Shown here one piece after another: positions 5,790 to 10,962 of a stretch of 23,758 bases of DNA (the first letter of the stretch is position 1; every line of letters starts with the position of its first letter). The position numbers and the translations under genes were made by a program. Origin of the DNA: a virus. A model generated the notes under the pieces. The model saw nothing but the letters and a program-made list of their open reading frames with translations. It did not search any database and was not told the DNA's origin. The stretch covers positions 1 through 23,758 of IMG/VR virus record IMGVR_UViG_3300021373_002118; one strand, 5' to 3'.

Positions 5790-6262
5790 TTGTCAGCCAT
5801 CTTTGCTACGGCTGCATCATAATCTTCTTGTGATACAATACCTTCGCTCAATAGTCTTTTCCTATTGACCATATGTTGAGCTTGTACATCTTCTTTCGAA
5901 CCACCAAAGTATGGTACACAATGTCCTTCATCAATCATAACTTCAGTTAATTTTTCACGTTTGCCTTCATAGCGTTCTACATAGAAGTCACCAAGGATAC
6001 GTCCAAACTTGCCTTTCATATCCTCACCATGTTTATCCTCTTGAGTAATAAGAATAACATCATTTTCCATTAACTCTTTTACTCTTTTCTTGGCTGCTTC
6101 ACCAAATAGGTCTTCAACCTTATCAGATGTACGTGATTCAGGAGTATCGATGCCCATGACACGCACACGCTCATCTGTGAGCACGATACCAAATCCTAGT
6201 TCGATATCAACGTCGACGGTATCACCATCAACGACTTTAATTACTTTGCATTTATATTCCAC
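5786..6262 (-). CDS. Thermonuclease-like (SNase-fold) nuclease
   Basis: A 158-residue OB-fold nuclease. Landmarks match staphylococcal nuclease: V11-D12-G13-D14-T15; R34 in RVRVMGIDTPE; D39, P41 and E42; and F86-G87-R88-I-L-G. D14/D39, E42, R34 and R88 correspond to the Ca2+ ligands, general base and two catalytic Arg. It would cut DNA and RNA in a Ca2+-dependent manner. There is no N-terminal signal peptide, so it acts in the cytoplasm or is released at lysis; host DNA degradation is a plausible job. It sits inside a run of membrane genes behind a late promoter, overlapping them by 4 and 1 nt. The nearby EF-hand gene makes calcium a shared theme. Confidence 0.88.
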   Translation of the reverse strand: MEYKCKVIKVVDGDTVDVDIELGFGIVLTDERVRVMGIDTPESRTSDKVEDLFGEAAKKRVKELMENDVILITQEDKHGEDMKGKFGRILGDFYVERYEGKREKLTEVMIDEGHCVPYFGGSKEDVQAQHMVNRKRLLSEGIVSQEDYDAAVAKMADK

Positions 6263-6486
6263 TAGATTCCTCCATAAGTGCTAACTAATGCTGGACCAAA
6301 TAATGTCATTACCCACATTAGTACACCAATGGCGAATATGCCAATGAGTAACCATTTCATTTTAAAATCATCAACCTTCATTTGTAGTCCAAGTATTTCA
6401 TTACCTAAAACTCTTATAGCAAGTTCAAATTTTCCTTCTGGGTGATCTACTACGTCTATTGAGTTTTTCTTTTCTTCATCCATCAT
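6262..6486 (-). CDS. Small single-span membrane protein
   Basis: A 74-residue protein starting at the first of two adjacent ATGs (6486, with 6483 the alternative), behind GGAG about 6 nt upstream. Residues 1-43 are polar and helical (FELAIRVLGNEILGLQMKVDDFKMK); 44-65 (WLLIGIFAIGVLMWVMTLFGPAL) form one membrane helix with a short C-terminal tail. This is a tail-anchored style. It overlaps the lipase by 11 nt and the nuclease by 1 nt. Function unknown; it probably belongs with the other small membrane proteins of this operon. Confidence 0.72.
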   Translation of the reverse strand: MMDEEKKNSIDVVDHPEGKFELAIRVLGNEILGLQMKVDDFKMKWLLIGIFAIGVLMWVMTLFGPALVSTYGGI

Positions 6487-7210
6487 TTTGCTCCGTGTAT
6501 GTTATGTAATTCATCATTCCATGATCTGTTGCACCATCAAACTTACTTCCGTTTTTCCATGCAGCACGACGACCTCTCCAGCCATCTTTAAATCTTTGCC
6601 ATTTAGTCATCTTACGAATATTGCCATGGAAGTTAATGTAACGTAGTGTACCGTGGTGTCTATATCCCATCCATGCAAACGGAACTTTTGGAACAATATC
6701 GTTATTATTCACATGTCTGTAATGAGGACATGTAATAGCTTTTACAAACTTTTTAGATCCTACACGTGGGGATCCATATGTGAACAAAGCATCTACGTCA
6801 TCAAAACGTGATGCTGCTACAGTAGCCATCGCACCACCGAGTGAATGTCCACAAATAAAGAACTCTTGTGTTTTTAAAATGAAATGTTTTTCTTTGTGAG
6901 CTACAATGGCATCCCAAAGTTTTTCGGTTTCGTTTTGAAACCCGTTATGTACACGACCACCAGCTTGAGCCTTATCTGGCCAAGCGTTTAAGTCTGCTTT
7001 AATGTCTGAAAATTCTTTTGGCTCTGTTCCTCTAAAACAGAGAACATACATATTCTTATTGACAACTGCATGGCATTGAGCACCATCGTTTTCGAAAAAG
7101 AAATGCTTCGTAAATCCTAGTTTACGGTATTTTGGTTTTGCTTCAGGTCCATCCTCATAGGCAATGCCTGCAAGCTTAGCCATAAGGCTACACTTTTCTA
7201 TATGATCCAT
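6476..7210 (-). CDS. Class-3 lipase (alpha/beta hydrolase)
   Basis: A 244-residue alpha/beta hydrolase. The nucleophile elbow is G121-H-S123-L-G-G126; the acid is most likely D171 in VNNNDIVPK, the strand and motif typical of Lipase_3; the base is H230 in ATDHGMMNY. C58-F-R60-G61-T62 upstream is the oxyanion-hole strand. It should hydrolyse acylglycerols or phospholipids. No signal peptide is seen, so it may act on the inner face of the membrane or after holin opening, helping lysis or lipid recycling (inference). It is the first gene of the minus-strand operon, with AGGAG before the ATG and a TATAAATA late promoter about 60 nt upstream. Confidence 0.9.
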   Translation of the reverse strand: MDHIEKCSLMAKLAGIAYEDGPEAKPKYRKLGFTKHFFFENDGAQCHAVVNKNMYVLCFRGTEPKEFSDIKADLNAWPDKAQAGGRVHNGFQNETEKLWDAIVAHKEKHFILKTQEFFICGHSLGGAMATVAASRFDDVDALFTYGSPRVGSKKFVKAITCPHYRHVNNNDIVPKVPFAWMGYRHHGTLRYINFHGNIRKMTKWQRFKDGWRGRRAAWKNGSKFDGATDHGMMNYITYTEQNDG

Positions 7211-7340: not shown

Positions 7341-7844
7341 ATGAAAAAATTAATATTCATACTGAGCGGAGTAATAAACGCCATGGTGTTAGGAGCGATC
7401 CTGGCAACAGTTCTTAATGGCTACGGCCCAGAACTGGATGCCAAAGAGGTCGAGTGTATGGCTAAGAACATATACTACGAATCTCGCAGTGAACCAATTG
7501 AAGGACAAATAGCAGTTGCACAAGTTACACTCAATCGTGTAGCTCATACTAACTGGCCAAACAACATTTGTGATGTTGTGTATGAACCAAAACAATTTAG
7601 CTGGACATGGCTAGAAAAGGATCAAACACCAAATGATCCTATTGCATATAAGAGAGCTGTTGTTGTAGCTCGTGACGTTATGATTGGCAATGTTGTCGAT
7701 CCTACACATGGTGCAGTATTCTATCACGCGGCTTATGTAAATCCTGAATGGAACCAATACATGGAAGTGAGTAAAGTTATTGGTGCTCATATCTTCTATG
7801 TATGGGATGGACAATGGATTAAGAAACAAAAGCAAGAGAAGTAA
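7341..7844 (+). CDS. Cell-wall hydrolase, SleB/Hydrolase_2 family (candidate endolysin)
   Basis: A 167-residue peptidoglycan hydrolase. Residues 1-27 are a basic start plus hydrophobic stretch (KKLIFILSGVINAMVLGAILATVL), a signal-anchor or SAR-type export segment. The catalytic domain follows: E38-CMAKNIYYE47-SRSEP, then GQIAVAQVTLNRVAH and W72-P-N-N-I-C-D-V-V-Y...FSWTW, all hallmarks of the SleB/CwlJ fold, with E47 as the likely catalytic acid of this lytic-transglycosylase-like family. It would cleave the glycan strands of the periplasmic wall at lysis. It is alone on this strand, opposite the lipase and small membrane genes, with its own sigma70-like promoter. The stop overlaps the next ATG. 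Confidence 0.88.
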   Translation: MKKLIFILSGVINAMVLGAILATVLNGYGPELDAKEVECMAKNIYYESRSEPIEGQIAVAQVTLNRVAHTNWPNNICDVVYEPKQFSWTWLEKDQTPNDPIAYKRAVVVARDVMIGNVVDPTHGAVFYHAAYVNPEWNQYMEVSKVIGAHIFYVWDGQWIKKQKQEK

Positions 7845-8317: not shown

Positions 8318-8399
8318 TGACGATGGTTATGTGATAATAATGTCACATAATAAAAAATGTGTAATTGCCTATTTACGTCAGCAAGGATATGTGATATAA
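8277..8399 (+). CDS. 40-residue basic small protein
   Basis: A short ORF (ATG 8277, TAA 8397-8399) overlapping the zinc-ribbon gene by 41 nt. The peptide is a basic start (MRIEKRNKKYVAI), a turn DDDGYVIIM, then HNKKCVIAYLRQQGYVI, which could be a mini beta-fold. No clear ribosome binding site. Its 3' end contains the putative tmRNA promoter (8372-8400). The pattern looks protein-like, but it is short enough to arise by chance. Confidence 0.42.
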   Translation: MRIEKRNKKYVAIDDDGYVIIMSHNKKCVIAYLRQQGYVI

Positions 8400-8400
8400 G
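8372..8400 (+). promoter_or_regulatory. Putative promoter of the tmRNA
   Basis: TTTACG (8372-8377), a 17-nt spacer and TATAAG (8395-8400), the same spacing and a -10 identical to that at 18620-18625. A start about 7 nt downstream (near 8406-8408) would coincide with the 5' strand of the tmRNA P2 helix, i.e. the expected beginning of the acceptor piece. Confidence 0.55.
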
Positions 8401-8460
8401 TATTCTCGTAGATGTTAGAGGGTATTCAGGACCTCGGGGCGGTACCGAGCAGCTCCACCA

Positions 8461-8517
8461 TAAACACACTGGGAGAAATCACTCTCCATCACTGAAAGTT
8501 TAACAGTGTGTTTTTAT
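8461..8517 (+). other. Intervening segment of the tmRNA precursor (removed hairpin)
   Basis: This segment links the mature 3' CCA to the mature 5' G. It forms a hairpin: AAACACACTG (8462-8471) with CAGTGTGTTT (8504-8513) is a perfect 10-bp stem that nearly continues into the acceptor stem, and GGAG/CTCC is an inner stem. In permuted tmRNAs such a segment is cut out to free the two pieces. Confidence 0.8.
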
Positions 8518-8564
8518 GGGGCTGAAATAGGATCGACTGGTATTTGAGTCTACGAAACACAAAT

Positions 8565-8609
8565 GCAAACGATAACTTTGCACCATCTGGTTTTGCTCTA
8601 GCAGCATAA
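8565..8609 (+). other. tmRNA tag reading frame (ANDNFAPSGFALAA)
   Basis: Fourteen codons plus TAA. With the alanine charged on the tmRNA, the appended tag is A-ANDNFAPSGFALAA. It begins ANDN and ends ALAA, the C-terminal signal that ClpXP and related proteases recognise. The ANDNF start resembles tags of Caulobacter-type Alphaproteobacteria. Confidence 0.92.
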
Positions 8610-8681
8610 ACACAGGGGGAGGCCACTGCCTAGCAACAGAAGTGTGGCACTAATATATCACATTCATTAAGGGTAAAAGAA

Positions 8682-9074
8682 ATGAAAATCGCAATCGCAG
8701 CAACAGTAGCAGCATTGACACTTGCAGCATGTGCAGGTACAGAAGCAGAAGCAGCAGAAATCGGCGCAACAGGCATCTCAATCGGTGCAGAACTAGACAA
8801 CCGTTACAATGTCGATGCAGAAACAATGACAACAACATTGACACCAGGTGTTGGTTATGACATCGCAGGTTTTGGTCTATCAGCAGAAATGGACTTTGTT
8901 CTATATGACGATAAGTTCACATTGAACAATGACGAACTACCAACTCTAGACTTTGGTGCAGAGTATGGTCTAGGTCTTATGGGTCTAACATCAACAGCAT
9001 ATGTTGAATCAGGCTACAACTTTGAGACAGAAGATATGTCAGACGTAGAAGTTGGTGTTTCCTTCAAATTCTAA
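8682..9074 (+). CDS. Small outer-membrane lipoprotein-like beta protein
   Basis: A 130-residue protein with an N-terminal export signal and lipobox L-A-A-C17 in MKIAIAATVAALTLAACAG; an ordinary signal peptide cut after AEAAE is the alternative. The mature part has alternating strands (ISIGAELDNRYNVD, TLTPGVGYDIAGFGLSAEMDFV, AEYGLGLMGLTSTAYVESGYNF) and ends VEVGVSFKF, with a terminal Phe as in outer-membrane barrels. It is acidic and short for a full porin, so a small barrel or half-barrel. AAGGG lies 8 nt before the ATG. No terminator separates it from the tmRNA, so it may share that transcript; the terminator at 9117 closes the unit. Possibly changes the host surface (inference). Confidence 0.75.
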   Translation: MKIAIAATVAALTLAACAGTEAEAAEIGATGISIGAELDNRYNVDAETMTTTLTPGVGYDIAGFGLSAEMDFVLYDDKFTLNNDELPTLDFGAEYGLGLMGLTSTAYVESGYNFETEDMSDVEVGVSFKF

Positions 9075-9116: not shown

Positions 9117-9148
9117 GGGGAGCCACGGTTAGCTCCCCATTTTTATTT
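9117..9148 (+). terminator. Rho-independent terminator
   Basis: Perfect 7-bp stem GGGGAGC (9117-9123) and GCTCCCC (9132-9138) with an 8-nt loop, followed by ATTTTTATTT. It ends the tmRNA/lipoprotein unit. Just before it, at 9082-9096, TATAATAGTATCG resembles the sequence around the late boxes; a promoter there would yield only a very short RNA. Confidence 0.88.
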
Positions 9149-9940: not shown

Positions 9941-9966
9941 TATAAATATGTATCGATTTATAAATA
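9941..9966 (+). promoter_or_regulatory. Two T4-type late promoters in tandem
   Basis: TATAAATA occurs at 9941-9948 and again at 9959-9966, 18 nt apart, each followed by [A/T]xGTATCGA-like sequence. The second lies 27 nt before the ATG at 9994, with AGAGAGGA as ribosome binding site. This marks the 9994-13116 genes as late. Confidence 0.75.
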
Positions 9967-9993: not shown

Positions 9994-10962
9994 ATGAAGA
10001 AGCATCTACTCGGTGCATTCTTCGTAATGATGGCAACCACTGCATTATCGCAAACGGTTACCAATGATGCAGATGGACTATTTGATTCCACCAGCTATGT
10101 TGAAACAGATAGCACCACAAACAATACCACGACTAGTAATGTGACTACTGATAATACTAATACCAACACTAGTACTATCACAAGTACAAACACTAATACA
10201 AATACAAATAATAATACCTCTACTATTACGAGTACTAACACTAATAATAATACAAATACTAATACTAATACGACAACTAGTACAAATACAAACACCAATA
10301 ATACAACTATTGACCAAACGACTGACTCAACAATCAATCAAACTGTCAATCAAACAACTGACTCAACTATAGATCAGACTGTCAATACTACTAGCAATAT
10401 TACTACAGATAATACAAATCGTAATATTAACATTAGTACATCTACTAATACTAACACAAATAATAATACTAACGATACTACTATAAACAGTACTACCGAT
10501 AATACTAATACTAACACTAATGTGAATACTAATGATAGTACTATTACTCAAGAAGTAATATCCCCTCCCCCATCAGCCATTGCACCATCCATTCAATCAG
10601 GTGGAAATGATACTTGTACTGTATCATATTCTGCAGCTGTACAAACACAGATACTTGGTGTATCTGGGGGTGGACATGTAAGAGATTTAAATTGTGAACG
10701 TCTAAAGAATGCTAAGACCCTTTATAATATGGGTATGAAAGTCGCTGCTGTTGCACTAATGTGTCAGGAAGAGACTGTCTATAAAGCTATGGAAATGGCT
10801 GGCACACCTTGTCCCTATATGGGTGAGATTGGTGCTACTGCTCAGGCGTTATGGGACAACGACCCAGACCGTATTCCTGTAGATGACGGAAAGGAAGAGA
10901 ATGATACGACGACTGCTATTACTGTCGGTGGCATTCTTTTGGCTATCCTCCTCGTCCTCTAG
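9994..10962 (+). CDS. Secreted Asn/Thr-repeat stalk protein with Cys domain and C-terminal membrane segment
   Basis: A 322-residue protein. Residues 1-20 (KKHLLGAFFVMMATTALSQ) form a Sec signal peptide. From about 35 to 188 the chain is almost entirely Asn, Thr, Ser with Ile/Asp/Gln, in short repeats such as TNTNTN and TTDSTI(D/N)QTVN, predicted to be an extended or beta-solenoid-like stalk. A PPPSAIAPSIQSGG linker leads to a C-terminal domain with four Cys (C-T-V-S-Y, L-N-C-E-R-L, L-M-C-Q-E-E, G-T-P-C-P-Y). The end (TTTAITVGGILLAILLVL) is a membrane helix. Such proteins recur in T4-like marine phages. It could be an envelope-exposed adhesin or virion fibre component; role unproven. Late promoters and a good ribosome site precede it. 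Confidence 0.82.
   Translation: MKKHLLGAFFVMMATTALSQTVTNDADGLFDSTSYVETDSTTNNTTTSNVTTDNTNTNTSTITSTNTNTNTNNNTSTITSTNTNNNTNTNTNTTTSTNTNTNNTTIDQTTDSTINQTVNQTTDSTIDQTVNTTSNITTDNTNRNINISTSTNTNTNNNTNDTTINSTTDNTNTNTNVNTNDSTITQEVISPPPSAIAPSIQSGGNDTCTVSYSAAVQTQILGVSGGGHVRDLNCERLKNAKTLYNMGMKVAAVALMCQEETVYKAMEMAGTPCPYMGEIGATAQALWDNDPDRIPVDDGKEENDTTTAITVGGILLAILLVL
10120..10550 (+). repeat. Low-complexity AAT/ACT/ACA trinucleotide-type repeat
   Basis: The DNA encoding the Asn/Thr stalk is a degenerate array of AAY-ACN codon pairs (AATACTAATAC-type units). It also includes a near-duplicate of a unit encoding TTDST-I-[ND]-QTVN (about 10315-10385). The array is a likely site of length change by slippage or recombination. 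Long minus-strand ORFs here are by-products of the composition. Confidence 0.8.

Follow-up and report, generated by a model that had tools for sequence, protein, structure and literature searches.

A permuted tmRNA gene on a T4-like phage fragment

The window analyzed here, a whole 23,758-bp IMG/VR fragment of a T4-like phage, encodes a T4-type DnaB helicase (PHROG 19, 434 bits), ThyX, an endolysin, a virion structural protein, and others. The nearest isolate helicases belong to Kyanoviridae-type T4-like phages: C48C1 (71%), cyanophages, and Melnitz. Flanked by the endolysin gene (7341-7844) and the gene for a small signal-peptide protein (8682-9074), positions 8406-8651 of the plus strand hold a circularly permuted two-piece tmRNA of the alphaproteobacterial kind (Table 1). 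tmRNA is the bacterial RNA that frees stalled ribosomes. Its gene order here is permuted: the 3' acceptor piece, ending in an encoded CCACCA, lies upstream of the 5' coding piece, which begins with GGGGCTG. Using Rfam cmscan, this interval matched RF04321 (tmRNA_permuted, a family in which pseudoknot 1 [PK1] is usual, not required) at 88.9 bits (cutoff, 47; E = 3.6e-16) and RF01849 (alpha_tmRNA) at 81.8 bits (cutoff, 50; E = 4.7e-21). In folding, the 250-nt precursor outperforms every one of 200 shuffles (z = -2.55); the acceptor stem, T-arm, P2, and intervening stem all appear in the predicted structure. ARAGORN did not detect the tmRNA in the window and was also blind to seven of eight relatives carrying the same tmRNA type.

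Table 1. Features of the tmRNA locus and its surroundings (window coordinates)
Feature	Position	Strand	Remarks
T4-late-promoter-like octamer TATAAGTA	8395..8402	+	ends 5 nt ahead of G8408
Acceptor (3' tRNA-like) piece	8406..8460	+	sequence, Rfam, covariation
P2 5' strand TCGTAGA	8406-8412	+	pairs with TCTACGA 8549-8555
Predicted transcript start	~8408	+	
P2 inner strand, acceptor piece	8423-8429	+	
T-arm CTCGG-GGCGGTA-CCGAG	8433-8449	+	
Acceptor 3' strand CAGCTCC	8450-8456	+	7-bp stem with GGGGCTG
ACCA	8457-8460	+	
Intervening segment, 57 nt, predicted to be removed in maturation	8461..8517	+	no ORF
Intervening-stem arms AAACACACTG / CAGTGTGTTT	8462-8471 / 8504-8513	+	prolong acceptor stem
Coding piece (with tag frame and 3' pseudoknot)	8518..8651	+	
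Acceptor 5' strand GGGGCTG	8518-8524	+	
P2 inner strand, coding piece	8537-8542	+	
P2 outer strand TCTACGA	8549-8555	+	
Linker AACACAAAT, 9 nt, P2 to resume codon	8556..8564	+	site of missing PK1
Tag reading frame ANDNFAPSGFALAA + TAA	8565..8609	+	resume codon GCA 8565; TAA 8607-8609
3' pseudoknot, alphaproteobacterial type	8620..8648	+	S1 AGG 8620-8622 / CCT 8629-8631
3' pseudoknot S2 CCAC / GTGG, loop AGCAACAGA	8623-8626 / 8644-8647	+	
Downstream ORF with signal peptide; product probably a small outer-membrane-like protein	8682..9074	+	
Intrinsic terminator closing transcription unit	9117..9138	+	

The helices were examined for covariation in 56 representative relatives, against 500 shuffles that ignore relatedness. 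All 392 cells of the acceptor stem are paired, 46 of them changed on both sides, and none of the 500 shuffles equals this; the same holds for P2a (168/168 cells paired, 39 two-sided changes; 0/500 shuffles equal) and for the outer part of P2 (345/390 cells, 37 two-sided changes; 0/500). The T-stem is paired in 280 of 280 cells with 65 two-sided changes, and the three pairs of P2b are weakly supported, as 35 of the 500 shuffles reach the observed pairing. Locus selection partly used acceptor and T-stem pairing. The P2 strands played no role in selecting sequences, which makes their covariation an independent test. In every one of the 56 representatives, the third pair of the acceptor stem is G-U, the alanine identity element, and S2 of the 3' pseudoknot is present in 54, its sequence varying while the AACAGAA loop is conserved. 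In each of the 83 distinct sequences listed, the base at position -4 relative to the resume codon is an A. The window's tag frame ends as a hydrophobic degron followed by a stop, and nearly all tags among the matches listed end in the -LAA class.

A sequence-only reading of this DNA had proposed a phage-encoded, circularly permuted two-piece tmRNA on a T4-like phage, and the coordinates, pairings, and Rfam scores bear it out. The 7-bp acceptor stem, P2, T-arm, tag frame, and intervening hairpin lie and pair as it described, the two covariance models score far over their cutoffs, and the acceptor stem and P2, which it had singled out, both covary in related phages. As possible roles it had named ribosome rescue and the diversion of tagged proteins. 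Covariance-model scores, covariation, and folding together rule out a chance or artefactual origin.

Absence of pseudoknot 1 in a phage tmRNA group

The same reading had called the RNA complete; this does not hold, because PK1 is missing. P2 and the resume codon are just 9 nt apart, and the resume codon follows GGATCGAC by 27 nt, compared to about 60 to 67 nt in alphaproteobacterial tmRNAs, where PK1 lies between P2 and the resume codon. The window tmRNA otherwise resembles the Caulobacter-type tmRNAs of RF01849 and RF04321 in its permuted order, TLD sequence, alanine identity pair, resume-codon context, tag of the form ANDN...ALAA, and 3' pseudoknot with the conserved AACAGAA loop, but lacks PK1 and has a shorter P2.

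Among 108 phage loci with a readable tag, this distance falls into classes of about 27, 38 to 46, 54 to 57, and 59 to 68 nt; outside these lie two short outliers, which are misread tags, and three longer ones. The distances cluster, and the window therefore belongs to a distinct short class. The intermediate spacings of 38 to 46 and 54 to 57 nt occur in other phage tmRNA groups (e.g., loci L059, L084, L121, and L004), which suggests further reductions or different forms of PK1. A dedicated pattern, whose hits were screened for an acceptor stem and T-arm that match, identified at least 108 PK1-less loci including the window, that is, at least 107 other viral contigs, with 83 distinct sequences among the matches listed. 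The spacing from GGATCGAC to the resume codon in the PK1-less loci listed is 27 nt in 80, 28 nt in 22, 26 nt in 5, and 29 nt in 1.

Pattern searches of 385 alphaproteobacterial genomes gave no credible PK1-less tmRNA. The short-gap pattern matched in 93 of these genomes; 12 loci that were opened had no tmRNA start, and the other matches listed look like ordinary genic DNA. The long-gap pattern recovered many canonical PK1 sequences from alphaproteobacterial genomes. The sole "bacterial" PK1-less match (L138, from the Rhodobacteraceae MAG Water_Bin34) is phage DNA in a bin, because its contig encodes four homologues of window-phage proteins. A phage-type tmRNA also occurs on a contig binned as Bacteroidetes UBA4009 (L131), which, judged by the tmRNA alone, we suspect to be phage DNA too. 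PK1 loss was not found in the cultured phages examined that carry an alphaproteobacterial-type tmRNA, namely Melnitz, DSS3_MAL1, RpoS-V10, RcXuper, RcSimone-Hastad, and Phosso, which keep 62 to 66 nt.

Two-piece tmRNAs in phages have been described before: the Melnitz paper of 2022 reported one of alphaproteobacterial origin, and its count of two-piece forms in phage genomes came to 53, of which 50 were from aquatic samples (PMC9004378). In our searches, one exact 20-base tmRNA pattern alone hit at least 120 stretches in viral contigs. Phage two-piece tmRNAs as such are thus not rare and are common at sea, and the suggestion that one would be uncommon on a T4-like phage is refuted by these two counts. 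The tmRNA of the OM43 phage Melnitz (MZ577095-8) is like that of the window in coming from a T4-like marine phage, in being permuted and of alphaproteobacterial type, and in having a TATAAATA-type octamer just upstream and thyX nearby. Unlike the window, Melnitz retains 62 nt of PK1 region, and its intervening segment is long and contains a Shine-Dalgarno-preceded open reading frame (ORF). The glutamine riboswitch reported for Melnitz had no Rfam match beside the window tmRNA at E values up to 1.

In a 2005 survey of 274 tmRNAs, PK1 was lacking only in Oenococcus oeni, one partial plastid sequence, and mitochondria (PMC1168896). In Escherichia coli, tagging continues when PK1 is cut to a hairpin or swapped for single-stranded RNA (PMC4236655; PMC2481249), and PK1 loss is therefore compatible with function. 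The E. coli PK1-deleted tmRNA of Wower et al. 2009, as presented in PMC4236655, likewise lacks PK1 and still tags; that construct is a one-piece, engineered molecule, whereas the loss seen here is natural and common to a phage group. No description of a PK1-less phage class was found in the literature searched, in which few subscription journals were represented. PK1-less phage two-piece tmRNAs form a widespread, apparently undescribed group.

Promoter-like octamers and genes nested in the intervening segment of relatives

A T4 late promoter is an 8-bp TATA box that precedes the start by roughly one turn of the helix (PMC2988020). Among the 76 distinct PK1-less relatives, the best octamer upstream of P2 matches TATAAATA exactly in 34 (shuffles, 1.8%) and with at most one mismatch in 59 (shuffles, 21%), and it lies 5 nt from P2 in 53. 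PK1-containing phage tmRNAs have an exact TATAAATA in 49 of 89 distinct sequences (shuffles, 1.6%), mostly at one narrow position. The window octamer TATAAGTA differs from TATAAATA by one mismatch, and its position points to late expression of the tmRNA. It could just as well be an extended -10 box, TG-A-TATAAG, in which case early expression would be possible, and many of the other octamer sites likewise read as extended -10 boxes (TGnTATAAT). Homologues of gp55 were found in four of eight tmRNA-bearing related records, the four largest, with E values of 4e-16 to 1e-18. The authors of the Melnitz paper placed their tmRNA behind an early promoter (PMC9004378); in the Melnitz sequence, TATAAATA lies just upstream of the tmRNA, which conflicts with the published reading. 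Elsewhere in the window, ORFs 9994 and 16487 and the reverse-strand ORF 6476-7210 are closely preceded by exact octamers. The first of these ORFs (9994-10962, plus strand) encodes an Asn/Thr-rich repeat protein of low complexity and follows a pair of exact late octamers, at 9941 and 9959.

The closest tmRNA relatives among the matches listed (L090, L108, L062, L123, and L041) have neighbors in common with the window, and homologues of the 8682-9074 protein adjoin the tmRNA in L108, L062, L123, and L076. No terminator was seen between the window tmRNA and this ORF, and the protein, which resembles a small outer-membrane barrel, is apparently cotranscribed with the tmRNA. Bacterial tmRNAs with the same GGGGCTG start are mostly from Planktomarina and other Rhodobacteraceae; a marine alphaproteobacterium would fit as the host, short of proof.

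The arms of the intervening segment pair in relatives even as their sequences vary, with a mean helix of 10.3 bp compared to 6.6 bp when arms are swapped between sequences. The segment ranges from 5 to 244 nt in relatives, and long ones hold a Shine-Dalgarno-preceded ORF fitting between the arms. Loci with small genes in this position are L123, L147, L207, L148, L213, L219, L244, L297, and L299, and in L123, L148, L207, and L244 Rfam places tmRNA on both flanks of the ORF. The nested ORFs start 18 to 22 nt past CCA and end 14 to 22 nt ahead of GGGG; in two contigs, one 443-nt intervening segment holds both small genes in tandem. Substitution patterns indicate that these small protein genes are under purifying selection, with both families clearly coding: for the 63-amino-acid family, pS is 0.68 and pN is 0.065 (L123 versus L207), and for the 68- to 70-amino-acid family, pS is 0.81 and pN is 0.049 (L213 versus L148). 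The window segment contains none. Homologues of both families are stand-alone genes in many other phages; in 8 of 49 loci and in 9 of 80 they sit between the two pieces of a tmRNA gene. In the window, a 74-amino-acid ORF at 6262-6486 on the minus strand, in another operon, resembles by eye the 68- to 70-amino-acid membrane protein (motif FEL.IRVLGNEILG). Melnitz (L002, 3946-4398) has an unannotated Shine-Dalgarno-preceded ORF (MFKWLSKTRLVVITRDYFRERNRKADAKIPKYLSG...) in its intervening segment that extends into the coding piece. A tmRNA database paper of 2025 mentions one intervening sequence that contains a tRNA gene; a search of its text for protein genes found none mentioned (PMC11915505).

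Taken with the octamers and the missing PK1, these arrangements make it reasonably probable, if well short of assured, that the phages represent an undescribed, widespread class in which PK1-less tmRNAs are expressed from T4-type late promoters and in which the excised segment of relatives, not that of the window, nests one or two small protein genes, such that one late transcript would give rise to a tmRNA and a free small mRNA.

Proposed role in infection

We propose that the window encodes a functional trans-translation RNA that is made late in infection, works without PK1, and uses host SmpB, a reading to which we assign a probability of about 0.83. SmpB was not found in eight related records, and an identical search recovered it from 10 of 14 control genomes; the phage RNA would therefore have to use host SmpB. 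Expression, processing, charging, tagging, and their timing would, we infer, proceed as follows. Host RNA polymerase with a phage late sigma factor of the gp55 type would probably start near 8408, so that the primary transcript would begin at or within the acceptor piece. The transcript would fold with the intervening stem continuing the acceptor stem, and host tRNA-processing enzymes (RNase P and related) would excise 8461-8517, leaving two pieces held together by the acceptor stem and P2. In this PK1-less RNA, P2 sits about where PK1 would otherwise end, 9 nt ahead of the resume codon. Host alanyl-tRNA synthetase would charge the RNA with alanine via the G-U third pair, and the charged RNA with host SmpB would enter ribosomes stalled on broken messages late in infection. 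It would add ANDNFAPSGFALAA and release the ribosomes, and the -ALAA end would route the product to host proteases.

A reduced, phage-borne tmRNA could instead act as a decoy that binds SmpB and blocks host tmRNA without productive tagging. The missing PK1 would suit such a role, and there is a precedent in mycobacteriophage DS6A, whose tmRNA, likewise phage encoded and reduced, consists of the TLD only; a similar molecule inhibits tmRNA (PMC4131195; PMC11915505). However, the DS6A type has no tag frame, whereas the window tmRNA is two-piece with a full tag, and across 83 distinct sequences the tag frame, the context of the resume codon, and the 3' pseudoknot have been retained and vary under constraint, features of which a decoy would need none. 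We therefore regard a decoy as unlikely. Proteome remodeling, put forward by the Melnitz authors (PMC9004378), in which phage tags send host proteins to early degradation for amino acid recycling, agrees with the degron-like tags but seems to us marginally less probable still: tmRNA acts on the nascent chains of stalled ribosomes, not on finished host proteins, and the octamer indicates late rather than early transcription.

Least probable of all is a decaying, host-derived passenger gene without function. The loss of PK1 and the failure of ARAGORN to recognize the window tmRNA could be read as signs of decay, but several features speak against it: the acceptor, T, and P2 helices show compensatory changes, the tags are open, the promoter spacing is conserved, and the same reduced form occurs in at least 108 contigs.

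Standard finders of the ARAGORN type overlook the PK1-less class, and phage tmRNAs are therefore undercounted. The PK1-less phage group is a natural counterpart of laboratory PK1 deletions and provides a compact RNA with which to study the function of PK1 and the choice of the resume codon. Given the placement behind a late promoter, the proposed benefit of a tmRNA to the phage, rescue of ribosomes late in infection, becomes testable, and protein genes within the intervening segment would mean that an mRNA can be released as well when the tmRNA is processed.
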